Shown here in pieces: positions 1,991-46,264 of a stretch of 64,000 nucleotides of DNA. Every line of letters starts with the position of its first letter. Position 1 is the first letter of the stretch. This DNA comes from Candidatus Omnitrophota bacterium (GTDB taxonomy: Bacteria; Hinthialibacterota; Hinthialibacteria; Hinthialibacterales; JAKPRU01). The stretch spans positions 1 through 64,000 of the forward strand of contig JAKQSI010000021.1 of NCBI GenBank assembly GCA_029570205.1, written 5' to 3'. A model generated the notes under the pieces. The model searched no databases. It was not told the origin of the DNA and was given only the letters and a program-made list of their open reading frames with translations. The translations under genes were made by a program, and so were the position numbers.

Positions 1991-2050
1991 AGTAGGACAG
2001 GTTTCCGTGCCTGTCATGGCGAATCGCCAGGCAGGGACGCCTGTCCTACT
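1991..2050. repeat. Inverted pair of a dispersed ~20-bp repeat (GTAGGNCAGGCGTCCCTGCC family)
   Basis: Left arm AGTAGGACAGG at 1991-2001 and right arm CCTGTCCTACT at 2040-2050 are exact inverse complements. The likeness continues inward (gtttccgtgcctg against caggcagggacgc), making a hairpin of about 24-bp arms. The right arm, read on the minus strand, is TAGGACAGGCGTCCCTGCC. Relatives lie at 48787-48814 and 54963-54982. The arm includes the TAG stop codon of the DUF4434 gene that ends at 2046. No T-run follows, so it is not a classic terminator. Confidence 0.75.
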
Positions 2051-4064
2051 CTGTTTGGAGGGATTGGAACCAGCTTTTGTAAGCCTCATAAAACGGGCGA
2101 TTGCGCTGCGCGATGGAGGAATTGGCATACACGGGGCTGAAATAATGCGGGAAATCGAACTGTATCATTTTTACCGCTTCCTGCGCCGCATACAGAACCT
2201 GAAGTTTGACTCGCTCGAAGTCGGCGGTAGTCGCAGCCCAGTTTTCCTGGTCAATCGGATGCCCGTGGGTCTGCCGGAAAGTCTCGATATTCCACCAGAA
2301 CTGAACACCGCTTCGGGAACAGATTCCGGAAATCATAGAAATATAGTGCGGCAGACATTGGATTCGAAACGTCTCCGCTCCGGAAACGTTCAGCGCGCCC
2401 ACGCTGTCCTGCATGGCTACAATATCGACGCCGCTTTGAGAAATTGTCTCTTCCCAGATGGTTGTGAATGTCTCATCCGGCAGATACGTTGTAAAATAGG
2501 GGGAAATCAGGACGGGTTTTCCGGGGGCCAGCCGATGACAAATGTCTACCATTTGATGAAACGCACCCGCGATTCGTTTTCGATGTGAGGAATCTCCCAG
2601 AAACGCATCGCACAATTCATACGGCATGTACCAACCTGCAAAAGCCGGACGATTTCCATAAAGACTATGCAGTTCCTCCACAACGGGTTGGACCTTCTGC
2701 ACAAAGGCATCCGTATCCGAGTTGAAAGTCCACACCCAGGAATAGTCGAAGTGAGGCAGGGAGAGAAACATCTGCATTTCGCGCTTCCCGGCTTCGTCCA
2801 GAATTGTGCCGACTGCATCTCCCTCCGCCTCGCGTCCGGTAACGATTTGCGACGGATAATAGGCTTTGTCCAGAAAGGTGGAATCCGGAATAATCAGTTC
2901 GATTCCGACGGCTTTCATGTGGTCCAGCTCCCTGCCGACATAAACGGGATCGGAGTAATAGCGCGCCGCCCCGATGATCTGGGCGAAACTGCCCTGGATT
3001 GTTTTGGAGGGCGGCTCGGAAGGGATGTGCGGCATGATCGGTGTCAAATACGAGAAGCTTGTGCGCTGCTGCCGGCGCCAGTTCTGATAATCCTGATACA
3101 GCCGCTCCGTGTTTTCTTTCGATGGCGAATCGGCGGTATCGGGGAGAAAATATCGTGTGGCGGGAAAAGCCACGAGGTGTTCGGCATATTTTCTGAGAAA
3201 TGTGACTTGTGTTTGTAGAGATGCAAACGTGGCCGCCTGGGTGGATTCGCTTTCCTTCGAGAACGTGTCAATGGTTGCCCACAGGCGCACGGATTGCTCG
3301 TCGGCGGCACGGGTAACAGCCCACAGGTGTTCGTTGACCGCCGGATGAACGGTTTCCGATACACCTCGCAGAATAAGGATATCGAGATGGACGGCTTCCA
3401 GGAATCCGGTCCATTGTTCCTTGACTGCGAGTGTCTCACTCTCGAAAGACAGGCGACCGAAACCGGCAATAACATGGGTCGGATCGAGACGTTGAAGGGC
3501 GGAGACCAGTGAAGAGTAGAACTCCGTTAGACGTGCCCGCTTCGCCTCATCTGCCAGGCAGGAGTCGGGGATTTCGTAAGGGATCACCCATCCCGCAAAG
3601 GCGCTTTTCGTACCGAAGCGTGCGCAGGTTTCTTCTGCGTACCCAAGCATTGCGGCGCAAAGCTTCCCTAGGCCGTTGCTGTCCAGAGAAAGCCAATTCG
3701 GTTCCTCTCTCGGTAACATCACAAGAATCTCAAGGGATTCGGCGGCATCAAATATCTCCGCCAGGGGATCATTGGATTGCAGGCTCACCGCTGCAAATGG
3801 CCGCCCCGCGTTCACAAGAACAGCCGGGATACCCAGTGTTCGGAGCTGGTCCAGCTGGGAGGCGCAGTCTATGGAGGAGGAAAAAACTGTGGGGGCCGAT
3901 CCGGTCTCAAGAAGAGCCACCGACAGGCCGATGTTGCGGTTGGGCAAAGGAGGGGAGAAATTGTTTTTCATGGCAAATCCTGTCGGCGCTGAGAGGATCA
4001 GGCCCAATAATCCGATCACTATTCCTTTCGGGAAGTTTCGGCGTGAACCGTGGTGAATATCCAT
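2046..4064 (-). CDS. Secreted protein with two tandem DUF4434-type TIM-barrel domains
   Basis: About 672 residues. Start: ATG 4064 has AAAGGTG five bases upstream; the alternative ATG 4079 overlaps the lacI stop (ATGA) but has no ribosome site. A signal peptide follows (basic MDIHHGSRRNFPKG, hydrophobic GIVIGLLGLILSA). Two copies of the same domain are visible. The C-terminal copy (about 340-670) has the full set GWYMPYELCD, ISPYFTTY, VDIVAMQDSVG and WWNIETF. The N-terminal copy (about 45-335) has weaker counterparts GWVIPYEIPD, LDILILRGVS and LWATIDTF. DUF4434 proteins are glycoside-hydrolase-like barrels of unproven substrate. A single-domain cytoplasmic relative is encoded at 7956. It follows lacI at 11 bases, so it probably belongs to the LacI transcription unit. 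The N-terminal copy may be non-catalytic. A dispersed repeat supplies the stop codon. Confidence 0.82.
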   Translation of the reverse strand: MDIHHGSRRNFPKGIVIGLLGLILSAPTGFAMKNNFSPPLPNRNIGLSVALLETGSAPTVFSSSIDCASQLDQLRTLGIPAVLVNAGRPFAAVSLQSNDPLAEIFDAAESLEILVMLPREEPNWLSLDSNGLGKLCAAMLGYAEETCARFGTKSAFAGWVIPYEIPDSCLADEAKRARLTEFYSSLVSALQRLDPTHVIAGFGRLSFESETLAVKEQWTGFLEAVHLDILILRGVSETVHPAVNEHLWAVTRAADEQSVRLWATIDTFSKESESTQAATFASLQTQVTFLRKYAEHLVAFPATRYFLPDTADSPSKENTERLYQDYQNWRRQQRTSFSYLTPIMPHIPSEPPSKTIQGSFAQIIGAARYYSDPVYVGRELDHMKAVGIELIIPDSTFLDKAYYPSQIVTGREAEGDAVGTILDEAGKREMQMFLSLPHFDYSWVWTFNSDTDAFVQKVQPVVEELHSLYGNRPAFAGWYMPYELCDAFLGDSSHRKRIAGAFHQMVDICHRLAPGKPVLISPYFTTYLPDETFTTIWEETISQSGVDIVAMQDSVGALNVSGAETFRIQCLPHYISMISGICSRSGVQFWWNIETFRQTHGHPIDQENWAATTADFERVKLQVLYAAQEAVKMIQFDFPHYFSPVYANSSIAQRNRPFYEAYKSWFQSLQTE

Positions 4065-4075
4065 AACGACACCTT

Positions 4076-5113
4076 TCATTTCGGGGCCGGGCCGCTGGAA
4101 TCCCGTTTGCGAAGTTCCGGGGTGCAGGTCAGATCATCCTCCGGCAATCCTTCGATCTGGTTCAGGATTTTTTTTGCGGCGAAGCGGCCCATATCCAGCT
4201 TGGGTTGCGCAATCGAAGTCAGCGGCGGATAAACCAGCGAGGCAAAGTCGATATCATCGAATCCGACAAAGGAAAGATCCGTCGGCACACGGTATCCCCA
4301 GGACAAGGACGCCTGCATTGCGGAGATGGCGAGCCGATCGGAATAAGCGAAAAATGCGGTCGGCGCATTCTTTTTTTTCAGGATATCCCTCAGGGGGGTC
4401 ATATCCTGCACATCAGGGTCGATTTCGATTGTGGAGATTTCCGAATCCAGGCCGAAATCTTTCATGGCGCGGAGATACCCCCGATACCGTTGCGCATTCT
4501 CCAAACCGAAACGATGCCGTTCGGAGTGAAGGTCCTCCTTTGAGGGCGTGATATAGATAATCCTTCGATGTCCCAGGTCGAGGAGATGTCTGGCAGCGAG
4601 ATAACCGCCCTGTTCATTGTCGGTTCCGATCATGGGGGCATTGACCTCCTTTTTGCGCGTTCCGACGATGACGATGGGGATGTGCAGGTCTTGCGCCTGA
4701 CGAATCACACGGCTGTTGGTTCCGCAGCTGGTAACCGGCAGAAGGATAATTCCCTCCACCTGTTTATCAATAAGAGTCTCCAGGTGCGCCCGTTCTGCGG
4801 CGGGGTTCTTGTGTGAGCAGCAAAGAAGGATGCTGTATCGCCGTTTGTCGAGGACCGACTGCGCACCGTCGATGACATCGGCAAAGAAAGATCCCCGCAC
4901 ATTACTGGTTAAAATGCCGATCAGGCTGGTGCGGTTATGGACAAGTCCGCAGGCGAGGATATTCGGGCGATATCCGATTCGTTCGGCCACGCGACGGACA
5001 TTTTCAACGGTTGTGGAAGAGATCCGTTTATCGCCGCGCAAGGCACGTGAGACGGTGCTGTGAGAAACGCCCAGTTGGGCCGCGATATCTTTGATAGTGG
5101 TTCTGCGATTCAT
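4076..5113 (-). CDS. LacI-family transcriptional regulator
   Basis: 345 residues. ATG 5113 (MNRRTTIKDIA) is chosen because LacI proteins begin almost directly with the helix-turn-helix; the longer frame to 5209 adds 32 unrelated residues and would cover the operator. HTH: TIKDIAAQLGVSHSTVSRAL, then the hinge helix region RRVAERIGYRPN. The periplasmic-binding-protein-like effector domain follows (SLIGILTSNVRGSFFADV, GTDNEQGGYLAARHLLDLGH, FVGFDDIDFASLVYPPLTSI). The protein should bind a sugar-like effector. Operator-like palindromes centred on CAAACG lie in its own leader (5155) and at the start of the divergent unit (5321), so autoregulation plus control of the discoidin/pilin genes is likely (inference). 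The stop overlaps the alternative ATG of the DUF4434 gene. Confidence 0.93.
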   Translation of the reverse strand: MNRRTTIKDIAAQLGVSHSTVSRALRGDKRISSTTVENVRRVAERIGYRPNILACGLVHNRTSLIGILTSNVRGSFFADVIDGAQSVLDKRRYSILLCCSHKNPAAERAHLETLIDKQVEGIILLPVTSCGTNSRVIRQAQDLHIPIVIVGTRKKEVNAPMIGTDNEQGGYLAARHLLDLGHRRIIYITPSKEDLHSERHRFGLENAQRYRGYLRAMKDFGLDSEISTIEIDPDVQDMTPLRDILKKKNAPTAFFAYSDRLAISAMQASLSWGYRVPTDLSFVGFDDIDFASLVYPPLTSIAQPKLDMGRFAAKKILNQIEGLPEDDLTCTPELRKRDSSGPAPK

Positions 5114-5154
5114 CGTCACAATCTCGTAATATGTTGCGAACAGGGTAACCTTAA

Positions 5155-5168
5155 AACAAACGTTTGCA
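5155..5168. promoter_or_regulatory. LacI-type operator O1 in the lacI leader
   Basis: AACAAACGTTTGCA contains the perfect 10-bp palindrome CAAACGTTTG (5157-5166) and matches an ideal TGCAAACGTTTGCA at 12 of 14 positions. LacI-family operators typically are palindromes with a central CG. It lies about 55 bases downstream of the predicted lacI start point and 41 bases before its ATG, where a bound repressor would act as a roadblock. Confidence 0.7.
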
Positions 5169-5227
5169 CAAGCTCCCGATTCCCTGTTTTTCGGACGGAA
5201 ATTGCTCAAGGTTGAGATATCCTGTTG

Positions 5228-5256
5228 ATTGTATTGAAGATCGGTGATTCTTTCAA
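5228..5256 (-). promoter_or_regulatory. lacI promoter: Sigma-70-type promoter of lacI-DUF4434
   Basis: On the minus strand TTGAAA (5256-5251), a 17-base spacer and TACAAT (5233-5228). Each hexamer matches consensus at 5 of 6. The predicted start is near 5221, giving a leader of about 108 bases that contains operator O1. Confidence 0.6.
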
Positions 5257-5283
5257 AATTTACGATTTTTTTGCTTCAGGGGA

Positions 5284-5311
5284 TTGACAGGGGTTGGAAG
5301 TATGGTATAAG
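5284..5311 (+). promoter_or_regulatory. Sigma-70-type promoter of the discoidin/pilin unit
   Basis: Perfect -35 TTGACA (5284-5289), 16-base spacer, -10 TATAAG (5306-5311, 5 of 6); TAAGAT at 5308 with an 18-base spacer is an alternative. The predicted start is near 5318, directly in front of operator O2, so repressor binding would block initiation. It is back to back with the lacI promoter. Confidence 0.7.
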
Positions 5312-5320
5312 ATAGTTTTG

Positions 5321-5334
5321 TGCAAACGTGTGCA
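5321..5334. promoter_or_regulatory. LacI-type operator O2 at the transcription start
   Basis: TGCAAACGTGTGCA differs from the ideal palindrome TGCAAACGTTTGCA at one position. Its centre is 166 bases from that of O1, close to a whole number of helical turns (15.8 at 10.5 bp), so a loop between two repressor dimers is possible (inference). Confidence 0.75.
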
Positions 5335-5358
5335 TCGTACCAAGTCTCGGAGGTCACC

Positions 5359-6465
5359 ATGAAATATTCCATCACAGCTGTTTCCCTTTGTATGGTTGTG
5401 TGTGCGGCAATGGCGCAGGATGAGTTTCTGTTCCCTTATGAATCTCCTGACGATATTACGGTGCGCACAGGGTGGGAGGACGTGGCGCTTGGAGCCTTTG
5501 TGAAGGTTTCTCCGGAGGGGTCGCAATCGGCGGAGATTCTTACGGACGGCTTGAATCGTGAGAACGAGGGCGAGCGATTTATTGCCTGGCAGGGTCTTGC
5601 CGAGCCTTTGGAGATCGTTGTGGACTTGGGGGAGACAAGGAATGACCTTCTGTCGTTCCGGGCGTTCTGGGCGGTGGATTACACGGGCCTGGGCGGGCCG
5701 GTGGCGGACTGGGTCGCTGAAACCCAGGTTTCGGTTTCGACAAACGGCACGAATTACACGGTGTTGGGCAACGCCCGCAGCGAGGACATGTCAGAACCGA
5801 ACGCGAACGACTATACCATCCGTCATTCCATCAATGACTTGACGCTTACCCAGCCGGTGTCGGGTCGGTACGTGCGATTTTATGTCGAGAATCCCCCTGC
5901 GAATGTGATGTGTTCGGAGGTAACGGTGTTACGGGAAATAGCCATTCCGGCGGATGCAACGAACGTGGCGGTTGGGAAACCTTATGTGACCGATCCGCCC
6001 GGCAACGATGGGAGTCGCCCGGACGACGGCATTCGCCTGACAGATGGGCGGCTGGCGGCAGACGCATCAACCGATGTGACCGGCTGGGGCAGTTTCCCGG
6101 GTACCGAGGCGCTCAATATCACGATTGATTTGGGCGCTGTCGCGCACAATCTGGTAGCATTTCGGGCCTGGTACGCGGCTTGGGAGAGAGCGTTTGTTTT
6201 TGTTGTGGGGACGATGTACGTAGAGGTTTCGGATAATGGAACAGATTTTACGCGCCTGGGGATGGTGCCGAAGCTCTACGATCACGATGACGATCCGCCG
6301 TTCAGCAATGTCCCGTATCTCCTGATTCCCCAACAGCCGGTGAGCGCGCGCTATGTTCGGTTTATCACCATGGGAAGCGATTCAAATACATTTACAACAT
6401 TTGCGTGTGAACTCGAGGTTTACCAGGGCGCTCCCACCGGTGTGTCGAGTTGGGAGATGTTCTGA
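5359..6465 (+). CDS. Secreted protein with two discoidin (F5/8 type C)-like domains
   Basis: 368 residues. ATG 5359 follows CGGAGGTC at the right distance and opens a signal peptide (MKYSITAVSLCMVVCAAMAQ). Two similar jelly-roll halves follow. Each has the pattern of a discoidin carbohydrate-binding domain: a D-G start (ILTDGLN, IRLTDGRL), VVDLG/TIDLG, LVAFRAWYA-like, a VSTNGTNYT/VSDNGTDFT strand and a closing SARYVRF with a final strand. The domains are about residues 35-190 and 195-355. It ends in a short tail, GVSSWEMF. It probably binds glycan at the cell surface or in the periplasm. It is the first gene behind the O2-controlled promoter, with a pilin gene 16 bases after its stop. Binding specificity is unknown. 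Confidence 0.85.
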   Translation: MKYSITAVSLCMVVCAAMAQDEFLFPYESPDDITVRTGWEDVALGAFVKVSPEGSQSAEILTDGLNRENEGERFIAWQGLAEPLEIVVDLGETRNDLLSFRAFWAVDYTGLGGPVADWVAETQVSVSTNGTNYTVLGNARSEDMSEPNANDYTIRHSINDLTLTQPVSGRYVRFYVENPPANVMCSEVTVLREIAIPADATNVAVGKPYVTDPPGNDGSRPDDGIRLTDGRLAADASTDVTGWGSFPGTEALNITIDLGAVAHNLVAFRAWYAAWERAFVFVVGTMYVEVSDNGTDFTRLGMVPKLYDHDDDPPFSNVPYLLIPQQPVSARYVRFITMGSDSNTFTTFACELEVYQGAPTGVSSWEMF

Positions 6466-6481
6466 GATCCGGAGGTCGATC

Positions 6482-7048
6482 ATGAAAGCCGGGCGTGGAT
6501 TTACGTTGATTGAATTGCTGATCGTTGTGGCCATCATCGGCATTCTGGCGGCAATTGCGGTGCCGAATTTTCTGAACGCGCGTCTGCGGGCCACAATCTC
6601 GCGAGTTTACTCCGAACAGCGTTCCATTGAGGACTCGCTGACGGCGTACAAGATCGACCATAATGCCTATCCCGTGGATAACGGAACCGGCTTGATTGCC
6701 CCGCCACGAAATACGATCAATTTAAATGGGGTGGAGCAGACCGTTACGGGAATCGTTGTTCTCACGACACCGGTAGCCTATATGACTTCGATTCCAAAGG
6801 ACCCTTTTGTTCCGCCAAATGACGAGAAGATCGGGTGGTACCAGTGTTATGTGTATTACGGTTCGAATGCGCCGTTTAATTATGGCGAGTTCAATGAGCG
6901 GGCGCATTACATTCTCTATTCCGTTGGACCGGACAAACAACTACAATGGGGGTTCGGTGACAACCGATACGATGTGAGCAATGGGCTTGTCAGTTCTGGG
7001 GACATTATTCGAGTCGGACCCGGCTTGCGCAATAGCGCGGCCGGATAA
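6482..7048 (+). CDS. Type IV pilin-like protein (class III signal peptide), pilin 1
   Basis: 188 residues. ATG 6482 with CCGGAGGTC in front; the open frame extends further upstream but lacks a site there. Prepilin leader MKAGRG, cleavage expected before FTLIELLIVVAIIG, which forms the hydrophobic N-terminal helix; the conserved Glu5 of the mature protein is present. The globular part has the planctomycete-style YKIDHNAYP segment and ends with YDVSNGLVSSGDIIR, shared almost word for word with pilin 2 at 45695. Such proteins are pilins or pseudopilins assembled by a PilB/GspE machine. Its place between two discoidin-domain genes suggests a glycan-binding fibre or pseudopilus rather than motility (inference). 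Confidence 0.88.
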   Translation: MKAGRGFTLIELLIVVAIIGILAAIAVPNFLNARLRATISRVYSEQRSIEDSLTAYKIDHNAYPVDNGTGLIAPPRNTINLNGVEQTVTGIVVLTTPVAYMTSIPKDPFVPPNDEKIGWYQCYVYYGSNAPFNYGEFNERAHYILYSVGPDKQLQWGFGDNRYDVSNGLVSSGDIIRVGPGLRNSAAG

Positions 7049-7107
7049 GAATGGTTTCTTGCGCATTGTCGCAAGCCAACATCTCACCCGAAAGGAGAGA
7101 CAGGCAG

Positions 7108-7683
7108 ATGAGGAAGTTTTGGTTTTCAATTCCGGTAGCCGTTTTGGTTCTGGTGGTGGCAGGTAGTATCCCGGCGCAGCCGGTGAACTATGCGGCCGGG
7201 ATGACCTACACGGCAGACCCACCGTTGCGTACCGACTGGCTGGGCGATTCAGGCGGGGAGCTGACGGACGGGGTCAAGGATTGGGCCTGGGGACCAGTGA
7301 CCGGCTGGGATGGTATGACCGCGACAAATCCCCGCACCATCGTGCTCGACCTGGCCTCGGCGAAAAGCGATATCGGTTCGGTTGTGGTCACGGTATTCGT
7401 TTCGATCAGTTCCGCGGTGCCGCCGCAGAAGCAGATCCTGGTTTCCGGTTCCAGCACAAGTGCGACAGCGGGCTTTGCCGAATGGGGCGAAGCGGTTACG
7501 AAAGATACCGGCGATGAAGCGAATTACACGTACACATGGACCGGCGGCCCGTTCGCAGCGCGGTGGGTAAAAGTTATCCTGGATTCGCAGACACCCGGAT
7601 CTCATAGTCTTCTTTCCGAGATTGAGGTTTTCAAGGCTGAAGGAAGCTCCGCCGTGGGAGACGAGTGGATGCTGTATCAATAA
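7108..7683 (+). CDS. Secreted single discoidin (F5/8 type C)-like domain protein
   Basis: 191 residues. ATG 7108 has AAAGGAGAG upstream; the frame back to 7051 adds residues without a signal. Signal peptide MRKFWFSIPVAVLVLVVAG...PAQ. One domain of about 155 residues with the family pattern GELTDGV, TIVLDLAS, a long strand, AARWVKVILDS, and a last strand LLSEIEVF. It ends AVGDEWMLYQ, a tail resembling the WEMF end of the two-domain protein at 5359. Third gene of the O2 unit, 59 bases after the pilin. Likely a glycan-binding partner of the pilin or of the ABC importer downstream; substrate unknown. Confidence 0.8.
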   Translation: MRKFWFSIPVAVLVLVVAGSIPAQPVNYAAGMTYTADPPLRTDWLGDSGGELTDGVKDWAWGPVTGWDGMTATNPRTIVLDLASAKSDIGSVVVTVFVSISSAVPPQKQILVSGSSTSATAGFAEWGEAVTKDTGDEANYTYTWTGGPFAARWVKVILDSQTPGSHSLLSEIEVFKAEGSSAVGDEWMLYQ

Positions 7684-7955
7684 TCGGTCGGGTATATCCC
7701 GGAGGGACAGGAAGAAGAATACGGGGTGTCCCCGAGGGAGGACAGTGGTTCTATTCTGGGTGGGCGGGTCATAGACTCGCCCATGCATAATGACACCGGC
7801 GGAGAGTCTTGAGCCTGTGTGAGGATTTTAGACAGATACTCCTGCCGAGCCGTTCGTCATAAAAGGATCGGCTCGGCAGGAGATAGGCCTCCCCAATGCC
7901 GATTAGTTAGTCGATGTGATTTGTTGCCCGCCGGTCCGTTAGTAGAGGTTTGTTT
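7684..7955. repeat. Intergenic stretch with a 14-bp perfect inverted repeat (7839-7882)
   Basis: CTCCTGCCGAGCCG (7839-7852) pairs exactly with CGGCTCGGCAGGAG (7869-7882) around a 16-base loop. There is no T-run on either side, so it is not a typical intrinsic terminator; it could attenuate between the discoidin/pilin genes and the importer genes, or be a REP-like element. Nothing else convincing in these 272 bases. Confidence 0.6.
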
Positions 7956-9143
7956 ATGTCACAGTGCGATGAAACATTTGTCGGTCCGGGCGAGACAGTC
8001 TCGCAGAGCCTTCACGATCAGATACTCGTCCCGCCGAACCTGAGAAAACGTCACCAAGATATGATCTTTCGTTCTCTACGTAATGGTTCGCAGAAGTCGG
8101 CTGTCGCCGACCGATATGGCCGGCCTTCTGCCGGAGGACGAACGCTTCCCATCGCCGGGACTTTTGTCCCGTTTCATGAGCGCGATCTTTGCCGGCGCTG
8201 GAGCGATCCGTCTTATCGCGCCACACAGTATCATCTTCTTAAGGAGATCGGGCTGAACACGTTGATCCTGTTGACGGGCAACCTGGGAGGCGTTTGTTAT
8301 GATTCACGCTATTATGCACATATTTGCGATACGGACTTGGTAGACACTGTTCTAAAAGAGTCCTCCAGGCTGGGGATGGAGATCTGGATCGGTTTGCCCC
8401 ATGTAGAAATTGCCTGGATGCTGCAACCAAGAATCCGGCTCACTCGCCTGCTGGAAACCAGCCGCCTTCTCATTGAAGAGATTCAGCAACAATATGGGCA
8501 GTACGACAACTTCCACGGCTGGTATATCCCGTATGAACTGTGCAACGTTTTCGTAGAGGAATCCGAAGATCCCTCGTGTCTACCACACTGGGTGAACTCG
8601 ATCGCGATGGGCTGCAAGCTCATGCCCGGCGATCGACCGACGGCTATTGCGCCATATTTTACCGTTACAGACGGACCGGACGCATTCGCACGTCTGTGGG
8701 AAAACATTGTTCGACGGCTTTCTATGGTCGATGTTATTATGATGCAGGACAGTGTGGGCATTTTTAAAGAGGATCGGCTGTTGGAATTGCCCTTGTGTTT
8801 CCGTATGTTGAAAAGCCTTGCCGAAACCCATGGGAAGCGACTGTGGGCAGACATTGAAATTTTCGACCAGCAGGCCGGAGTGCCCCTGGATTGGGAACCC
8901 TGGACCGCCGATCCCGCCCCATACGAGAGAGTGATTCGGCAGATGCAACTGGTCTCGGAGTATGTCGAGCGGATTGTGACGTTCAGCTATTTCGACTATA
9001 TGAACCCTGCCGCCGGTCCCGTAGCCGGACAACTCTATCGGCAGTATCATCAGTACCTGACTTCGTACGATTCGAACACGGCGGGTCGTGCGGAGGAAAC
9101 TAAGGTATCCTCTGCCGGGGAATCTGTCCGGCAAGAAACATGA
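7956..9143 (+). CDS. DUF4434-type TIM-barrel protein, no signal peptide
   Basis: 395 residues from ATG 7956 (AGAGG seven bases upstream; TTG 7950 is two codons earlier). About 70 N-terminal residues of no clear fold precede the domain, which begins at LPIAGTFVPFHERDL. It carries the family marks GWYIPYELCN, IAPYFTVT, VDVIMMQDSVG and LWADIEIFD, closely parallel to the C-terminal domain of the secreted protein at 2046. I see no signal peptide, so it likely acts in the cytoplasm on material brought in by the importer. Its stop overlaps the start of the binding-protein gene (ATGA at 9140), so the two are translationally coupled. Enzyme activity is not established for the family; a glycoside-hydrolase-like role is inferred. 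Confidence 0.8.
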   Translation: MSQCDETFVGPGETVSQSLHDQILVPPNLRKRHQDMIFRSLRNGSQKSAVADRYGRPSAGGRTLPIAGTFVPFHERDLCRRWSDPSYRATQYHLLKEIGLNTLILLTGNLGGVCYDSRYYAHICDTDLVDTVLKESSRLGMEIWIGLPHVEIAWMLQPRIRLTRLLETSRLLIEEIQQQYGQYDNFHGWYIPYELCNVFVEESEDPSCLPHWVNSIAMGCKLMPGDRPTAIAPYFTVTDGPDAFARLWENIVRRLSMVDVIMMQDSVGIFKEDRLLELPLCFRMLKSLAETHGKRLWADIEIFDQQAGVPLDWEPWTADPAPYERVIRQMQLVSEYVERIVTFSYFDYMNPAAGPVAGQLYRQYHQYLTSYDSNTAGRAEETKVSSAGESVRQET

Positions 9144-10483
9144 ATGGCCTCCAACGGATCTTCGACACAGCACGTGCCATTTGTCATCCCCAAATCGGAC
9201 TGACGAGTTTCGCTATTCTGTTGATGATGACCGGGTGCGGTAACCGGCAGGCAGATTCTCTAATCGAACTGACCTTCTGGCACGCCTGGGGCGGCTACGA
9301 AGGGAAGTACCTTGAAGATCTGGTCCGGGAATTCAATGACACGCACACGCAGATCCGGGTGAAACCGGCGTTTTTCATTATCGGCGATAAGTTAATGGCC
9401 GCGATTGCCGGAGGGATCCCGCCGGACATCGCAACCGTGTGGGACTGGATGTTGCCCACTATGGGCGAGGCCGGATGTTTTCTTCCCCTGAATGACTACC
9501 TCCAGCGCGCCGGGCTTGGGCCGGAGGATTACCTGCCGAATGTCTGGGATTACGGCATGTTCAGCGAAAAGAAATTCGGCGTTCCCACCGCACTGAACGT
9601 ATGGATGATCTTTTACAATAAGCGTCTGTTTACCGAGGCGGGGCTGGACCCGAAATCTCCCCCTGCCGATATTGCTTCTCTTACAGAATGTGCCCGTCGC
9701 CTTACACGCCGCGATGCGACCGGGAAATTGGAACGGATCGGATTCATTCCCGAATTCCAGTACTCTTATATTTGGATGTGGAACTTCGGAGGGGACCTGT
9801 ATGATCGGGAGTCCAGACACTTTATTATCGACTCGCCTGAAAATGTGCAGGCCGTGAAATGGATCGCATCCCTGTATCGGGAGTACGGAATCGATAATTA
9901 CCGCCGATTTGTTGCCACATTCGGAGAATACGACAGCCCGAACAATCCATTTTACAAAGAGAAACTGGCCATGCGCGAAGACGGGCAGTGGCAGATCTCC
10001 TTTATCCGGCATAACGCTCCCGATTTGGATTATGGCCTGATTCCTTTTGTCAGTGCCGTTCGGGACCGAGAGAGTCAGAGCGCGATGACCGGAAGTTTCT
10101 GGGTCATCCCCGAGGGATGCCGCAATCCCGACGCGGCATGGACCTTTTTATCCTGGCTCATTGCGCCCGCGCAATCCGCCCGGTTTGCGTCAACACTGTA
10201 CAATGTTCCACCCTTGCGTGCCGCGCTGAACGATCCGGCTTACGCCGATGTCTACCGGTCGCGGATGCGGGTCTTTATTGATTTCCTGCTTGAGGGGCGC
10301 GCCCGCCCACTGCCTGCCCTTCCCATCGGGCAGTTTTTCTACAACGAATTTAACAATATCATGGAAGAAATCTGTTCCGGCGCGCTGGAGCCGGAGGCCG
10401 GTTTACCGATTTTGGACAATCGCTTGCAGAGAGAACTGGATCGCTCGCTGCGACATCTCGGCATTACAGAAGAGCATACATGA
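9140..10483 (+). CDS. Sugar ABC transporter substrate-binding lipoprotein (UgpB/MalE type)
   Basis: 447 residues. Lipoprotein signal with lipobox LMMTGC (Cys33). The mature part begins IELTFWHAWGG, the usual opening of family-1 solute-binding proteins (TFWHxWGG), followed by GGIPPDIATVWDW, GVPTALNVWMIFYNKRLF and GSFWVIPEGC. It captures an oligosaccharide or sugar derivative outside the inner membrane and passes it to the permeases at 10480 and 11408. Start and stop overlap with both neighbours by ATGA, so it is a tightly coupled operon with the DUF4434 gene. The substrate cannot be read from the sequence. Confidence 0.93.
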   Translation: MNGLQRIFDTARAICHPQIGLTSFAILLMMTGCGNRQADSLIELTFWHAWGGYEGKYLEDLVREFNDTHTQIRVKPAFFIIGDKLMAAIAGGIPPDIATVWDWMLPTMGEAGCFLPLNDYLQRAGLGPEDYLPNVWDYGMFSEKKFGVPTALNVWMIFYNKRLFTEAGLDPKSPPADIASLTECARRLTRRDATGKLERIGFIPEFQYSYIWMWNFGGDLYDRESRHFIIDSPENVQAVKWIASLYREYGIDNYRRFVATFGEYDSPNNPFYKEKLAMREDGQWQISFIRHNAPDLDYGLIPFVSAVRDRESQSAMTGSFWVIPEGCRNPDAAWTFLSWLIAPAQSARFASTLYNVPPLRAALNDPAYADVYRSRMRVFIDFLLEGRARPLPALPIGQFFYNEFNNIMEEICSGALEPEAGLPILDNRLQRELDRSLRHLGITEEHT

Positions 10484-11394
10484 CCCGACAGGAACGACTA
10501 CACCTCAAAAACGGCCTTCTCTTCGCGGCGCCCTGGATTGTGGGATTCTGCGTATTCACATTCGCGCCGATCCTTGCCAGTTTTTACTATTCCCTGTGCA
10601 GTTACAATGTTGTACGCGAGCCGATCTGGATCGGATTGGAAAACTACCGGACTTTGCTTTTTGAGGACCCGCATTTTCTCAAAACATTATATAACACCCT
10701 GTATATGATGGTGTTCGGAGTTCCGCTTTCTCTCGCGCTTGCATTTTGCCTCGCCGCACTGCTGAACACGGATGTCTCATTCCTGTCTTTCTTTCGTACC
10801 GTGTTTTATCTTCCGAGTGTTGTGCCGGTTGTAGCCGTGTCTATCCTCTGGGTGTGGATTCTGAATCCGGAGTATGGCTGTATCAATGCTCTTCTCGCCT
10901 CGCTCGGTGTTCATGGCCCCGGCTGGCTGACGGATCCCCGCTGGTCTAAACCGGCTCTGATTCTAACAAACCTCTGGGGCGTCGGCAACATTATGATCAT
11001 CTTTCTGGCAGGGTTGCAGCAGGTTCCGCGAAGTCTTTACGAGGCGGCTGTGGTAGACGGCGCAAATCGGCTGCAACGCTTGTGGAACATTACGTTGCCG
11101 TGTGTGAGTCCCGTGATATTCTTTAATCTGATTATGGGGGTTATTGCCTCGTTTCAATATTTCACGCAGGTCTATATCATGACAACCGGCATTTCGCCGG
11201 AGTATGGCGGGCGGGCCGGTGGGCCGGAAGGCTCCACATTGGTGTACGCCTTGTATCTCTATCAGAATGCATTTCAGCATTTCAAAATGGGCTACGCGAG
11301 CGCGATGGCATGGATTCTATTTTTGCTCTCCGTGGCGGTGATCTATGTCATACTGAAAACAAGCGGCTGGGTGCATTACGCGGAGGAGCAATAA
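10480..11394 (+). CDS. Sugar ABC transporter permease, MalF/UgpA type
   Basis: 304 residues with six predicted membrane helices; the first is APWIVGFCVFTFAPILASFYYSL, typical of the UgpA/LacF group. The cytoplasmic EAA loop that docks to the ATPase is EAAVVDGANRLQRLWNITLP. Starts at ATG 10480 overlapping the binding-protein stop and precedes the second permease by 13 bases. Forms the heterodimeric channel with the 11408 product. Confidence 0.94.
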   Translation: MTRQERLHLKNGLLFAAPWIVGFCVFTFAPILASFYYSLCSYNVVREPIWIGLENYRTLLFEDPHFLKTLYNTLYMMVFGVPLSLALAFCLAALLNTDVSFLSFFRTVFYLPSVVPVVAVSILWVWILNPEYGCINALLASLGVHGPGWLTDPRWSKPALILTNLWGVGNIMIIFLAGLQQVPRSLYEAAVVDGANRLQRLWNITLPCVSPVIFFNLIMGVIASFQYFTQVYIMTTGISPEYGGRAGGPEGSTLVYALYLYQNAFQHFKMGYASAMAWILFLLSVAVIYVILKTSGWVHYAEEQ

Positions 11395-11407
11395 GGGGCA
11401 GAAAACA

Positions 11408-12235
11408 ATGCTTGGAAAAAAAAACGACTGTGTCTGGATTTATGCCGCGCTTCTCGCGGGGTCGTTCTTGTTTTTCATGCCGTTTTGGTGGATGCTGATT
11501 TCTTCCTTGAAAACAAATGAGCAGATATTTACCGTTCCACCCGATTGGTTCCCCCGGCCCATCCATTGGCAAAACTACCTGGATGCCGTCACCTTTATTC
11601 CATTTGTACGATATCTTTGGAATACCCTGATTATTTCCTTGGGCAATACGGTAGGGAACGTATTGAGCGCCTCCCTGGTAGCATATAGCTTCAGTCGGAT
11701 TCCCTGGCGAGGACGGGATGTCTGCTTCTATTTGATGCTGGGAACGATGCTGCTCCCACCGCAGGTGACCATGATTCCCGTATTTGTCATATTCCGAACC
11801 ATGCGCCTGATCGACACATTTGCGCCGTTGATTATTCCCTCCTTTCTGGGTACACCTTTTTTCATCTTTCTCTTGCGTCAATTGTTCCGCGGGATACCGG
11901 AGGCGCTCAGTGAGGCGGCACGGATTGACGGGTGTTCGGAATGGCAAATCTACGCGCGAATTATTATGCCGCTTTCCATCACCGGCCTGGTGACCGTTGT
12001 TGTGTTTTCATTTTTGTGGAGTTGGGTCGATTATTTGAACCCGCTGATTTACTTGCAAACTCCGGAGAAGTTTACTCTGTCGCTCGGATTGCAGCAATTT
12101 CAGAGTAGCCATGCGTTGGAGTGGGGAATGCTGATGGCGGCCGGTACGCTGATGGTGCTGCCGGTTGTGCTGTTGTTTTTCGTTGCGCAGAAAGCCTTCA
12201 TTCGCGGTATCATTACCGGCGGGCTGAAAGAGTAA
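11408..12235 (+). CDS. Sugar ABC transporter permease, MalG/UgpE type
   Basis: 275 residues, six predicted membrane helices, with family marks PFWWMLISSLKTNEQIF near the N-terminus and the EAA loop EAARIDGCSEWQIYARIIMP. Last gene of the importer operon. No ATP-binding subunit (MalK/MsmK/UgpC type) is encoded in the window; many sugar importers share one encoded elsewhere. The next gene is on the opposite strand. Confidence 0.94.
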   Translation: MLGKKNDCVWIYAALLAGSFLFFMPFWWMLISSLKTNEQIFTVPPDWFPRPIHWQNYLDAVTFIPFVRYLWNTLIISLGNTVGNVLSASLVAYSFSRIPWRGRDVCFYLMLGTMLLPPQVTMIPVFVIFRTMRLIDTFAPLIIPSFLGTPFFIFLLRQLFRGIPEALSEAARIDGCSEWQIYARIIMPLSITGLVTVVVFSFLWSWVDYLNPLIYLQTPEKFTLSLGLQQFQSSHALEWGMLMAAGTLMVLPVVLLFFVAQKAFIRGIITGGLKE

Positions 12236-14821: not shown

Positions 14822-17800
14822 ATGAGAAATCGATCTGCCTATAGGACATTCATCCTGGTTATCCTTTCCGGGTTTATCCCGGGATCCGCGATGCAGGCAA
14901 TCGCAGACCCTGCGGGGGAAATACGGATGGCCAATCTCGCGGAACCGAAACCGGCCCAGGAACCGGTCGGAGACCGTCCCTATGAAATGGTGAGGGCCAA
15001 CCGGAAACCGGACCGGACCCCGCTGGTCAATTTCGATTCGCTGGATGGATGGTCGCTGGAATGCCTTGGGGGCGCTGTGGCGCGTGCGCATCCATCCTCG
15101 GAACAGCGAGTCTGGGAATCGAACACGGCAAAACTGATCTATCGCGGTACGGGCAAGGACAGCGCGGTAATCCTTCGACCGCCCGCTCCCATTCCGCTGG
15201 GAAACGAAGTGGAGTGCGTGCATCTCTGGGTTTACGGGAACAACTGGGGGTATAGCGAGGACCCAAAGACGCCATCCGTGCGCGTGTATTTTCTCGCGGA
15301 AGATGCCGAAAAGAACACCTGCGAGATTGACCTGGCCCAAGTCCAATGGAAAGAGTGGTGGCTGATCCACCGGAAAATTGCCAAAGAGACTGTTGCGAAA
15401 CTGGGTGACAAAGGGGTTTTCACAGGACTGAAGATTGTGGGCGGTTCGAATTCGGAAGACCGGGCGATTTTCCTGGAGGATTTGACGGTTTTCAAAGAGG
15501 ACCTGAAACCGCTTCAGTTCGATCCGCGCCCGAAACGCGGGATTGAGCCGTTCCCCGGTCAGTCTGTCGGGGCGAACACGGGGCCGGGACAGCTTCCCTT
15601 TCCTGCTCGGAAAGAAACAATTCTTCCGAAGAATTACCGGGCGAAATATCGAAACACAATTCAAAAGGATGAGGATGGGACATTCCGGTTTATCTACAAG
15701 GGGAAAGATGCCGAGCTGGAATACCGTCTCCATCCCGGGCACAAAGACCTTGGGTATGTGGAGATATTTCTGGACGGAACCAAGGTGGCCAACGGGCTTG
15801 TGGGAGCAGGGGTTCTGTTTGAGGAAGAGCCCAAGTCTGCGCAGTTGACCGGGGCGACGCTGGAGAATGACGTTGTTCGACTTGTCTGGTCGCACGGTGT
15901 GGAAAGCCATTTGCGGATTTGGCAGAAGTCGCTGGTCGTGGACTTTTTCTGCCAAGGGGGAAAGGCAACTGAACTGGCCTACGGGAAATTGACCGAGGGG
16001 ACGGAACCGGAATTGTTTCAGCTGCCCTACATCAACTACGGGCAGCATCATCTGTGTGTGCTTGCGCTGAGAGGAGAAGCGCCCTGTTTTGCCTCGGTGT
16101 GGATGGACTGGTATCAGTCGAACGGCTCCAAACCGTACGCAACGGATGAAATTAAAGAAGATGGGATTTACCTGAACGGCGGGGTGAGATACCTCCCGCG
16201 AACGGATGGAGTGCGTAACGACCTGTTTGAACGGGTATTCTTCACGGTTTCGCCGATGTTTGAGGAAACCCTGTGCACTATTCCGAATCCGCCCGCCAAA
16301 GAGGGATATATGGCAGGGCAGCGGCTCTGGCAGGAGAGTTGGGGACCGTCGAATTACGAAGATGAGATGAAACGGTCGGAAAAACTGCGGGCGTACGGGA
16401 TCGAAATGCTGACGCAATGCAACCATGAAATCACATGGCGAGACGAAGGAGAGAGTTTCACATTCCGCACGGAGGCTGCTCCCGGAAAAGGCGGCGATGA
16501 AGCGCTAAAGAAGTATATCGCACATCAGAAGTCTCTCGGCTGGCGGGCCGGTTTGTACACAAATTACTGTGATTTTTCGCCGGTAAACGCCTATTGGAAT
16601 GAGGATTGGGTGATGCGGGATTCAAGCGGCGAGTGGATTCGGGCGTGGTATCGCTGTTACTCCCCCAAGGCGCTTCGCGCCGTGGAGACGGACGCAAAAA
16701 TCGCGCCGATTGTGCAGGAAAAGTTCGGAACCGATGCGGCATACACGGATGTGCATACCTCTGTCTCGCCATGGGACCGCACAGATTATGATGCCCGTGT
16801 GCCCGGCGCGGGAACGTTCGCATCAACGTTCTATGCTTACGGCGAACTGCTGTTGCACGACCAGGATGTCTACAAGAATCACTGCTGGTCGGAAGGCAAT
16901 CACCAGTGGCTCTACACGGGACTGACCACGGGGAATTACGGGCTGACATACAGCAATCTGAACCTGTGGGAATATCCGTACCTGCCGCATTTCGATCTGC
17001 TGAAGATGCACCCGCTGACGGTGGACATCGGAATGCCCTGGACCGCCGGATTTTTCCAACGCTGCGAAGGGTGGAACAAACCGGAACGGATCGTGAAAAG
17101 TATCGACCAGTTTATCGCGGCGACCATTGCTTACGGACATATCGGCTGGCTGGTAGAAGAGGGCCACGGGATTCGTCAAACTTGCCGGTCGTATTACATG
17201 CTTCAGCAACTCCAGAGCCGGTATGTGATGCAGGAGCCGGAAGTGATTCTGTACGGCACGAATGAAGATTTGATCTCCTCATCGGAGGCATTTTTGACAG
17301 GCCAGTGGCGGAACAGCCGCCTGTTTATCCGGTATCCGAACGGACTGCGTATTTGGGTGAACGGGAACGACAAGAGATACTGGACAGTCGATGCAGGGAA
17401 AGAACAGGTGACCCTTTCGCCGTTCGGATGGGTTGCGATAAAAGGCAGGGAATTCTTCGAGAAATCGAGTGTCCATGAGGGCCATCGGGCGGACCTGGTG
17501 GGATCGCCGATGTATGTGTATGTAGATGGACGCGGGCAGGAAACGGAGTACGCGGGGATACGGACCTCCGGTGCGGTGGCGGTGCGCCCGGCGGCAGATG
17601 GCGAAACGGGTCTTTCGATAATCGCGGTCGAGGGCGTTGAAAAGATCAAGATCAGCAAACCCGAAGGCCGGTATAGCCGGGGGGATGTGCGCCACATGAT
17701 CGGGGAGATTGCGCGCGCAGAGAGCCTGGAGGTTGAGGCTTATGATGTGGAAGGGAATACAGTCGGACAGGCTTCGGTAGAACGGATTGAGGGAGGGTGG

Positions 17801-17875
17801 AGGATTACCGCACAGACAAAGGCGGTGAGGTATGAAGTGGGAATTAAGAATCAAGAATTAAAAATTAAGAATTGA
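14822..17875 (+). CDS. Large secreted glycoside-hydrolase-like protein
   Basis: 1017 residues. ATG 14822 with AAGGAGCG 9 bases upstream; signal peptide MRNRSAYRTFILVILSGFI to about residue 28. The N-terminal region (60-230) reads as a beta-sandwich, probably carbohydrate binding (FDSLDGWSLE, VHLWVYGNNWGY). A second beta-rich supersandwich (about 270-480) precedes a likely TIM barrel (about 490-780) with CNHEITWRDEGESF, GLYTNYCDFSPVNAYW, AAYTDVHTSVSPWDR and HCWSEGNHQWLY. A C-terminal beta domain closes it. The arrangement recalls GH101-like retaining glycosidases, but I cannot name the family or catalytic residues with certainty. The last residues (GIKNQELKIKN) are translated from an A/T-rich dispersed repeat and are probably not part of the fold. 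Confidence 0.72.
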   Translation: MRNRSAYRTFILVILSGFIPGSAMQAIADPAGEIRMANLAEPKPAQEPVGDRPYEMVRANRKPDRTPLVNFDSLDGWSLECLGGAVARAHPSSEQRVWESNTAKLIYRGTGKDSAVILRPPAPIPLGNEVECVHLWVYGNNWGYSEDPKTPSVRVYFLAEDAEKNTCEIDLAQVQWKEWWLIHRKIAKETVAKLGDKGVFTGLKIVGGSNSEDRAIFLEDLTVFKEDLKPLQFDPRPKRGIEPFPGQSVGANTGPGQLPFPARKETILPKNYRAKYRNTIQKDEDGTFRFIYKGKDAELEYRLHPGHKDLGYVEIFLDGTKVANGLVGAGVLFEEEPKSAQLTGATLENDVVRLVWSHGVESHLRIWQKSLVVDFFCQGGKATELAYGKLTEGTEPELFQLPYINYGQHHLCVLALRGEAPCFASVWMDWYQSNGSKPYATDEIKEDGIYLNGGVRYLPRTDGVRNDLFERVFFTVSPMFEETLCTIPNPPAKEGYMAGQRLWQESWGPSNYEDEMKRSEKLRAYGIEMLTQCNHEITWRDEGESFTFRTEAAPGKGGDEALKKYIAHQKSLGWRAGLYTNYCDFSPVNAYWNEDWVMRDSSGEWIRAWYRCYSPKALRAVETDAKIAPIVQEKFGTDAAYTDVHTSVSPWDRTDYDARVPGAGTFASTFYAYGELLLHDQDVYKNHCWSEGNHQWLYTGLTTGNYGLTYSNLNLWEYPYLPHFDLLKMHPLTVDIGMPWTAGFFQRCEGWNKPERIVKSIDQFIAATIAYGHIGWLVEEGHGIRQTCRSYYMLQQLQSRYVMQEPEVILYGTNEDLISSSEAFLTGQWRNSRLFIRYPNGLRIWVNGNDKRYWTVDAGKEQVTLSPFGWVAIKGREFFEKSSVHEGHRADLVGSPMYVYVDGRGQETEYAGIRTSGAVAVRPAADGETGLSIIAVEGVEKIKISKPEGRYSRGDVRHMIGEIARAESLEVEAYDVEGNTVGQASVERIEGGWRITAQTKAVRYEVGIKNQELKIKN

Positions 17876-45614: not shown

Positions 45615-45694
45615 ATGTGGTAATCCTGGCAGCGGTTTCGCTGTTGTCAAAGGATTTTGTGGGACAAATCGTGGCGCAAACGGAGGACCCGGCG

Positions 45695-46264
45695 ATGCGT
45701 CGAGCGTTTACCCTGATCGAACTCCTGATTGTGGTGGCCATTATCGGGATTCTGGCGGCAATTGCCGTCCCGAACTTCATGAACGCCCGAATCCGTGCGC
45801 AGATTTCCCGTGCGCAGGCGGACATGAATGCCATTGACTTGGCGCTGACTTCCTACCGGATGGATACGAACACCAAAAGCTATCCCCGCTTCAACAACAT
45901 CACCTGGCCCGGACGCTGGTCATATCTCACAACCCCTGTTGCTTATATCTCCAGTGGAGCCTTTACCGATCCGTTTTTCCCCAAGGGACGTTTGACAAAT
46001 GACGGCGATAAACCAATTTATTATTACGAAACCTTCGACCCATTCTACGGGCAGACATTCAAGCGGGATCTCTTCTACCAGGTCTTCGGACGATACAAAA
46101 ACATAGACGGGTATGATTATTGGATCGGCTCAGCGGGACCGAATGGCTATATCAATGGGGATGCCGGGCCACCGGCTGAGTTCTGCCCCTGCGACATCTA
46201 TTTTGAATACGATCCCTCAAACGGCTTGAAAAGCAATGGAGACATCACAAGGCTGGGAAAATAG
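45695..46264 (+). CDS. Type IV pilin-like protein, pilin 2
   Basis: 189 residues. ATG 45695 with CGGAGG 8 bases before. Very short leader MRRA, then FTLIELLIVVAIIGILAA; the residue before the cleavage site is Ala rather than the usual Gly, as is common in planctomycete-like prepilins. Then NFMNARIRAQISRAQADMNAIDLALTSYRMDTN, closely like pilin 1 in layout. Ends YDPSNGLKSNGDITRLGK, parallel to pilin 1. Monocistronic by its own promoter and a terminator at 46301. A pilus or pseudopilus subunit; no assembly genes next to it. Confidence 0.9.
   Translation: MRRAFTLIELLIVVAIIGILAAIAVPNFMNARIRAQISRAQADMNAIDLALTSYRMDTNTKSYPRFNNITWPGRWSYLTTPVAYISSGAFTDPFFPKGRLTNDGDKPIYYYETFDPFYGQTFKRDLFYQVFGRYKNIDGYDYWIGSAGPNGYINGDAGPPAEFCPCDIYFEYDPSNGLKSNGDITRLGK

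Follow-up and report, generated by a model that had tools for sequence, protein, structure and literature searches.

Gene content and conservation of the locus

A run of nine genes at positions 2046-12235 of the window (the whole stretch of DNA analysed, 64,000 nucleotides, to which all coordinates refer) joins a LacI-family regulator, two DUF4434 proteins, two discoidin proteins, a pilin and sugar transport genes, and raises the question of whether these genes form one system for glycan utilisation and what part the pilin plays in it. Gene calls and Pfam, with a structure model for the second discoidin protein, recovered every gene in the order first described. The nine genes are collinear in a sister species (G001), in which the flanks differ, with protein identities of 76-92%. 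Calculated against this species, the dN/dS values of 0.05-0.15 across all nine genes correspond to purifying selection. Neither discoidin gene was found in 11 other genomes of the class, and the nine-gene locus is restricted to the genus; the conserved neighbourhood on which the first-pass annotation had staked its reading is thus present in the sister species and does not extend beyond the genus.

The right-hand genes fall into two groups, parted by a 272-bp gap containing a hairpin (7839..7882; 17-nt arms, 10-nt loop, about -33 kcal/mol, no T tract), which is kept in the sister species whereas the spacer around it mostly is not. It was rejected as a dispersed REP element, being single-copy in 739 kb of the genome, and had no match in an Rfam search.

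Regulatory region

The repressor (4076..5113, minus strand, 345 aa; PF00356/PF13377) starts at the ATG at 5113 and not at the TTG at 5209; its gene overlaps the start of the adjacent DUF4434 gene by 4 bases. The protein is 91% identical to its counterpart in the sister species and 42% identical to the LacI of a DUF4434 locus in Sumerlaeota (L114). Two operator-like palindromes were located, TGCAAACGTGTGCA just downstream of the rightward -10 hexamer (5321..5334) and AACAAACGTTTGCA in the lacI leader (5155..5168), with 1 and 2 mismatches, respectively, to the symmetric sequence TGCAAACGTTTGCA. They are the only sites with at most 2 mismatches in the 64 kb, for 0.21 expected by simulation, and the pair is kept in two congeners, at spacings of 166, 168 and 166 bp over the three genomes. 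The two good palindromes claimed at the outset were thereby borne out. Since both operators are kept in three genomes, the order is collinear in the sister species and the genes are under purifying selection, the locus can be treated as one unit run by LacI, as had been proposed.

The divergent promoters fared less evenly. Promoter-like hexamers face lacI (TTGAAA-17-TACAAT, 5228..5256, minus strand) and the discoidin-pilin-importer direction (TTGACA ... TATAAGAT, 5284..5313, plus strand), each pair matching the consensus at 10 of 12 positions. The promoter scan as a whole was not above chance (9 found for 5.9 +/- 2.8 expected), so that support comes from the conservation in three genomes of the rightward TTGACA...TATA.GAT, the leftward hexamers being only partly conserved. 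LacI was also considered as a marker of pilin loci and rejected, the genome having just two LacI genes, the second in an unrelated neighbourhood.

Candidate hydrolases and importer

The secreted DUF4434 protein (2046..4079, minus strand, 677 aa) carries the domain in tandem (PF14488, 184.6 bits for a cut-off of 30). Its C-terminal domain retains the PYE, QD and W..E motifs (dN/dS 0.14 for the protein), and its N-terminal domain, which lacks QD and has D in place of the second E, is judged from these residues to be probably non-catalytic. The cytoplasmic DUF4434 protein (about 7956..9143, plus strand, no signal peptide; 158.8 bits, same cut-off) has intact catalytic-type residues and matches the PDB entry 4h41 with an E-value of 2.6e-13. 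With the conserved E of PYE and E of W..E and this PDB relative, the DUF4434 proteins are candidate glycoside hydrolases. The name of 4h41 in the PDB, 'putative alpha-L-fucosidase', is a database label. Our text searches on DUF4434 returned nothing direct, and no assay of any DUF4434 protein was found in the literature searched. A scan of genome contigs for DUF4434 used a 4-row alignment.

Downstream lie, all on the plus strand, a sugar ABC binding protein with a lipobox-like N terminus (9140..10483; PF13416/PF01547), a UgpA/MalF-type permease (10480..11394; PF00528) and a UgpE/MalG-type permease (11408..12235; PF00528). The importer announced by the first-pass annotation therefore has its binding protein and two permeases but no ATPase encoded in the locus. 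One OB_MalK ATPase is found in the genome, at a site (C9) away from the locus and not beside permeases, and we infer that it powers this importer. LacI-regulated ABC-type oligosaccharide utilisation loci consist of a binding protein, a pair of permeases and an MsiK-type ATPase that is shared. The present locus agrees with them in its LacI with conserved palindromes at its own divergent promoters, its carbohydrate-type binding protein and permease pair, its extracellular and intracellular hydrolase candidates, and the lack of a local ATPase, with a single orphan MalK-type ATPase elsewhere in the genome. It differs in that the hydrolase candidates are DUF4434 proteins and that two secreted discoidins and a pilin belong to the unit.

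Probable substrate and related loci

Clues to the substrate come from neighbouring genes. In the sister species, starting 153 nt beyond the final permease gene, the same strand carries genes for a GlcNAc 2-epimerase, a sodium:solute symporter and a BNR protein; the epimerase matches 2gz6 with an E-value of 1e-187, whereas cellobiose 2-epimerases reach about 1e-20. Homologues of this GlcNAc 2-epimerase type were also seen no more than 10 kb from DUF4434 at four other loci (L064, L118, L121, L142) and, as a fragment at the edge of the locus, in Prevotella sp. 10(H) (L138). In the genome under study, a ROK protein but no epimerase or NanE was present in the 739 kb searched (about 17% of the genome). 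The Sumerlaeota locus encodes, beside its LacI, a cytoplasmic DUF4434 protein (35% identity), a secreted DUF4434-discoidin protein, a NanE-ROK fusion and a sodium symporter, and shows an aromatic C-terminal ending, SSVEGWVCF; unlike ours, its discoidin is fused to DUF4434, and the stretch examined contains no pilin or ABC importer. The Prevotella locus likewise unites DUF4434 and discoidin, in a DUF4434x2-discoidin protein next to a further DUF4434 and SusD. It relies on SusD outer-membrane uptake, whereas here we find a binding protein-dependent ABC importer, separate discoidins and a pilin, and Pfam detected no SusC or SusD among the genes of this locus. The idea of an alternative to SusCD thus has a concrete counterpart.

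The fusion proteins in Sumerlaeota and Prevotella support, at the level of domain architecture, a functional link between DUF4434 and discoidin. Fusions and neighbouring genes show association, not substrate; with this proviso, the substrate class would probably be an N-acylhexosamine-containing oligosaccharide. Among solved structures, the binding protein has its best relative in 4r9f 'MBP1' (E-value 7e-53), which we take to be a mannobiose-binding protein, so that the substrate could instead be a glycan of mannose type that lacks N-acyl groups.

Discoidin proteins, pilin and C-terminal tag

Discoidin-1 (5359..6465, plus strand) has a signal peptide and two F5/8 type C domains (PF00754, 61.2 bits) and is 90% identical to its counterpart in the sister species. 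Discoidin-2 (7108..7683, plus strand; 86% identity) has a signal peptide but no Pfam match; its structure model (pLDDT 78.7) gave Foldseek matches to CBM32 modules and discoidin folds, and predicts one discoidin/CBM32-like domain. Between them lies a GspG/PilA-like pilin of 188 aa (6482..7048, plus strand), recognised as a type IV pilin or pseudopilin by its prepilin signal GFTLIELL, which includes the Glu of GFxxxE, and its hydrophobic helix (PF07963, TIGR02532). The GspG profile match is partial, at 59.2 bits for a cut-off of 88.85, and the structure model (pLDDT 39.7) is too low in quality for the head domain to be read.

Both discoidins end in a short aromatic tag, GVSSWEMF in discoidin-1 (6439..6465, plus strand) and VGDEWMLYQ in discoidin-2 (7654..7683, plus strand), the latter disordered in the model. 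The tag has the consensus V-x-[DES]-W-x-[LVI]-[YF]-COOH and exceeds the control about fourfold in this order; the pattern was defined on the genome under study and the sister species, and only the test on other genomes (G003-G008) is independent of that choice. It is carried by about 28 protein groups unrelated by BLAST, mostly with signal peptides; on secreted proteins adjoining pilin genes its frequency is about eight times higher. No NCBIfam model covered it in the ten tagged proteins searched, and no description of it was found in the literature searched. Its presence on both discoidins and its enrichment by pilin genes are new, suggestive support for a link between pilin and lectin; suggestive only, since many tagged proteins lie away from pilins, some far from any, and some pilin-rich genomes show no tag excess. 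We also asked whether pilins regularly stand beside discoidins and rejected the idea, the other Pfam discoidin matches of the genome not being next to pilins.

Possible role of the pilin

The genome, of 4.39 Mb, contains about 82 pilin genes (82-84 N_methyl genes), mostly solo and scattered, and the pilin of the locus has 80 paralogous matches. The first-pass annotation had seen a fibre or pseudopilus for glycan capture. As the pilin has about 82 dispersed counterparts in the genome, itself included, and the majority adjoin unrelated housekeeping genes, presence alone says little and such a device does not follow. That the pilin is a mere passenger in the same sugar operon and takes no part in glycan capture is a less likely reading, with several points in its favour: each genome of the class holds 42-150 pilin genes, some orthologous pilins change neighbours in the sister species (one pair, L167-L091, is 90% identical and shares 0 of 5 neighbours), and no pilin occurs in the stretches examined of the related DUF4434-LacI and SusD loci. 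The pilin nevertheless sits within the run of genes, with 16 nt between it and the preceding discoidin-1 and 59 nt between it and the following discoidin-2, shares 6 of 6 neighbours in the sister species, has a dN/dS of 0.05, and belongs to genes beside which tagged secreted proteins are enriched.

Alternatively, pilin and tag could serve secretion rather than capture: the solo pilins would supply the pseudopilus of a type II secretion system, which would drive tagged proteins through the outer membrane, with the tag acting as a signal for export or surface anchoring. GspG being the pilin's closest profile, and a disordered tag at the extreme C terminus of so many unrelated proteins, would fit; the many tagged proteins away from pilins would not, and we hold this reading about as likely as the passenger one.

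A partnership of pilin and lectin remains plausible, and has precedents. In TcpB-TcpF and CofB-CofJ, a type IVb minor pilin and a secreted soluble protein are encoded side by side and a short aromatic peptide outside the folded domain docks on the pilin, as proven by structures (PMC9565799); that peptide is N-terminal, whereas here it is C-terminal and its docking putative. The glycan-binding minor pilins PilA-PilC of Streptococcus sanguinis also join pilin and lectin functions, with the lectin module within the pilin itself (PMC9934059), whereas in the present locus pilin and lectin-like domains belong to different proteins. Fimbriimonas ginsengisoli, from another phylum, has 79 PulG genes, likewise scores of pilin-like genes in a single genome (PMC4072686); the excerpted text of that report mentions no partner proteins or C-terminal tag, and our text searches on solo-pilin arrays returned nothing direct beyond this precedent. 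Display of the discoidins on a fibre is the weaker part of the proposal. Its most general form seems to us rather improbable: a modular surface display found across the order, built on dozens of solo pilins whose N-terminal helices are near-identical and many of which have as gene neighbour a secreted protein, lectin-like or with repeats, that would be recognised through the shared tag. Here such a module would be wired into a LacI-controlled sugar operon, so that pilin-borne discoidins would capture glycan in place of SusCD.

An adhesion or exopolysaccharide-remodelling locus, in which DUF4434 would trim polysaccharide that the cell itself produces and the discoidin-pilin set would attach cells to surfaces, is very unlikely: discoidins and pilins are classic adhesion parts and DUF4434 also occurs in Proteobacteria with no evident utilisation genes alongside, but the importer, LacI and cytoplasmic DUF4434 in one unit, the epimerase in the sister operon and the NanE-ROK and SusD of related loci point to catabolism.

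Proposed mechanism

We give an even chance to a locus for glycan utilisation repressed by LacI, its most likely substrate being an oligosaccharide that contains N-acylhexosamine (GlcNAc/ManNAc-type), working as follows. Without inducing sugar, LacI would occupy both conserved operators, perhaps looping the 166-168 bp between them, and block the two divergent promoters. On induction, the two secreted CBM32-like discoidins would bind glycan at the cell surface and the secreted DUF4434 protein would trim it with its C-terminal TIM-barrel domain, the N-terminal one being degenerate. Uptake of the product would fall to the lipoprotein binding protein and the two permeases, with energy from the one unlinked MalK-type ATPase of the genome; inside the cell, the cytoplasmic DUF4434 protein would complete hydrolysis. 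The pilin would be drawn from the lineage-wide solo-pilin repertoire and may use the tags of the discoidins to hold or export these proteins, by analogy with TcpF and CofJ. Of this scheme, the gene content, the conservation of the unit, the selection, the operators and the tag statistics are observations; the substrate class, the activity and direction of the enzymes, the sharing of the ATPase and every action of the pilin are inference.

In several phyla, the comparison ties the uncharacterised domain DUF4434 to lectins of the discoidin type and, probably, to the catabolism of amino sugars, with substrates that can be tested. For the roughly 100 scattered pilin genes of some environmental bacteria, the hypothesis arises that their products may serve tagged lectin-like proteins as partners in display or export.

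Gene content and conservation of the locus

Gene calls and Pfam searches recovered all the elements named in the first-pass annotation of block 2046-12235, with corrected starts for lacI (ATG at 5113) and for the pilin (near 6482). Discoidin-2 had no Pfam match, and its predicted structure (pLDDT 78.7) matches CBM32/discoidin modules. Of the ABC importer, the sugar-binding protein and permeases are present but the locus encodes no ABC ATPase. The single OB_MalK-type ATPase of the genome, unlinked to the locus and without adjoining permeases, is a natural candidate to power it. Shortly downstream of the importer, 14822-17875 encodes a large protein (about 1,000 aa) that has no Pfam match; its N terminus is signal-like.

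All nine genes are collinear in the sister species G001 (a MAG deposited as Candidatus Omnitrophota), with 76-92% identity and different flanks, so the block has natural edges. Near-identical pieces were found on two short contigs of the congener G002. The dN/dS values are 0.05-0.15 across the nine genes, the pilin and permease 1 being lowest. Searches of 11 other class genomes matched neither discoidin, and DUF4434 relatives there sit in different neighbourhoods; the gene neighbourhood is thus conserved but restricted to the genus.

Operators and expression

Within the 64 kb, only the two palindromes have at most 2 mismatches from TGCAAACGTTTGCA, against 0.21 such sites expected. Both are conserved in the two congeneric genomes, with a spacing of 166, 168 and 166 bp across the three. 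The interpretation first proposed is upheld for a LacI-controlled glycan-utilisation unit, and as a whole is partly supported.

The right-hand genes form two groups, discoidin-pilin-discoidin and DUF4434-binding protein-permeases, separated by 272 bp. This gap contains a hairpin with 17-nt arms (7839-7882) that is strongly conserved in G001, whereas the rest of the spacer mostly is not. Intercistronic hairpins set relative expression in other sugar operons and, since no T tract is present at this one, we suggest the same role for it.

The pilin and a C-terminal aromatic tag

The genome carries 82-84 N_methyl genes (84 places), and all 14 class genomes examined (this one and 13 relatives) carry 42-150. 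In the 60 contexts read, the majority stand alone next to genes of unrelated function, so that finding a pilin within a given 10-kb locus is uninformative by itself. The locus pilin is notable for its position inside the unit, retained in G001 with 6/6 neighbours. Pilins of these 14 genomes share near-identical N-terminal helices and a common C-terminal NG..S.GDI.R.GP-like motif. The second solo pilin of the window (45617-46264) lies between genes of the opposite strand. At L163:6416-8820, three tandem pilin copies correspond to a single one in the window genome.

Both discoidins end in a short aromatic tag, GVSSWEMF (6439-6465) and VGDEWMLYQ (7654-7683), the latter disordered in the predicted structure. 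The tag, of form V-x-[DES]-W-x-[LVI]-[YF], occurs mostly on secreted proteins of this order, about fourfold over control. Counting the DNA pattern for V..W.[LVIMF][YF]-stop, in which TGG also passes in the stop's place, against the reversed pattern gave 433 versus 103 in nine genomes of the order, 72 versus 47 in the rest of the class and 249 versus 312 in 47 other genomes. In G003, a further genome, 13 of the 15 loci examined were matches ending ORFs of at least 367 codons. The forty tagged proteins in the stretches examined form 28 BLAST-unrelated groups, including LamG, CBM9, FG-GAP, DUF1349 and discoidin types; no NCBIfam model for the tag was seen among ten tagged proteins searched. Besides the two discoidins, tagged proteins lie at L071:6154, L087:8764, L089:2667, L098:5146, L102:6157, L176:6474 and 8629, L204:4599, L209:2014, L213:4886 and L216:3646. 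At L176:5577-11371 of G001, a pair of tagged proteins, each about 560 aa long, stands between two pilin genes.

The tag is commoner on signal-peptide proteins directly adjacent to a pilin than on other signal-peptide proteins, by a crude signal-peptide test on windows picked around high-scoring pilins: 8/47 versus 3/145 in the window genome (p 7e-4), 6/23 versus 0/39 in G001 (p 0.0016) and 11/40 versus 4/91 in the independent set G003-G008 (p 3.6e-4). Many tags are far from any pilin, and some pilin-rich class members lack the tag excess. Docking on a pilin has a parallel in TcpF/CofJ, secreted proteins that dock on a pilin by a peptide likewise short and aromatic, although N-terminal rather than C-terminal (PMC9565799); PilC of S. 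sanguinis is a lectin on a pilin (PMC9934059). By analogy, the tag could dock discoidins on the pilin, or it could serve more generally as a signal for export or anchoring. A glycan-gathering fibre, as first proposed, is possible.

Putative DUF4434 enzymes and proposed substrate

DUF4434 relatives, which include the solved structure 4h41, have three invariant features: the E of GWYxPxE, QD and W..E. We take these to indicate a TIM-barrel hydrolase whose two glutamates are catalytic. All three are kept in the cytoplasmic protein and in the C-terminal domain of the secreted one. The N-terminal domain of the secreted protein has no QD and carries D in place of the second E in the window, so its role is probably in binding or structure.

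In G001, 153 nt past permease 2, the operon continues into a GlcNAc 2-epimerase (2gz6, E 1e-187), a sodium symporter and a BNR protein. A Sumerlaeota contig (L114:2-11745), whose LacI is 42% identical to that of the locus, encodes a DUF4434-discoidin fusion, a cytoplasmic DUF4434, a NanE-ROK kinase fusion, a secreted DUF4434x2, another DUF4434 and a sodium symporter. GlcNAc 2-epimerase homologues also occur near DUF4434 in L064, L118, L121, L142 and partly L138. From these neighbourhoods we infer, with moderate confidence, a role in amino-sugar glycan catabolism; mannose-type sugars are a possible alternative, because the best solved relative of the binding protein is 4r9f 'MBP1'.

In Prevotella sp. 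10(H) (L138:3518-11215), SusD, DUF4434 and a DUF4434x2-discoidin protein are grouped together, with an epimerase fragment at the locus edge. For DUF4434-discoidin pathways, the LacI-controlled unit at 2046-12235 plausibly offers, as had been proposed, an alternative to SusCD.
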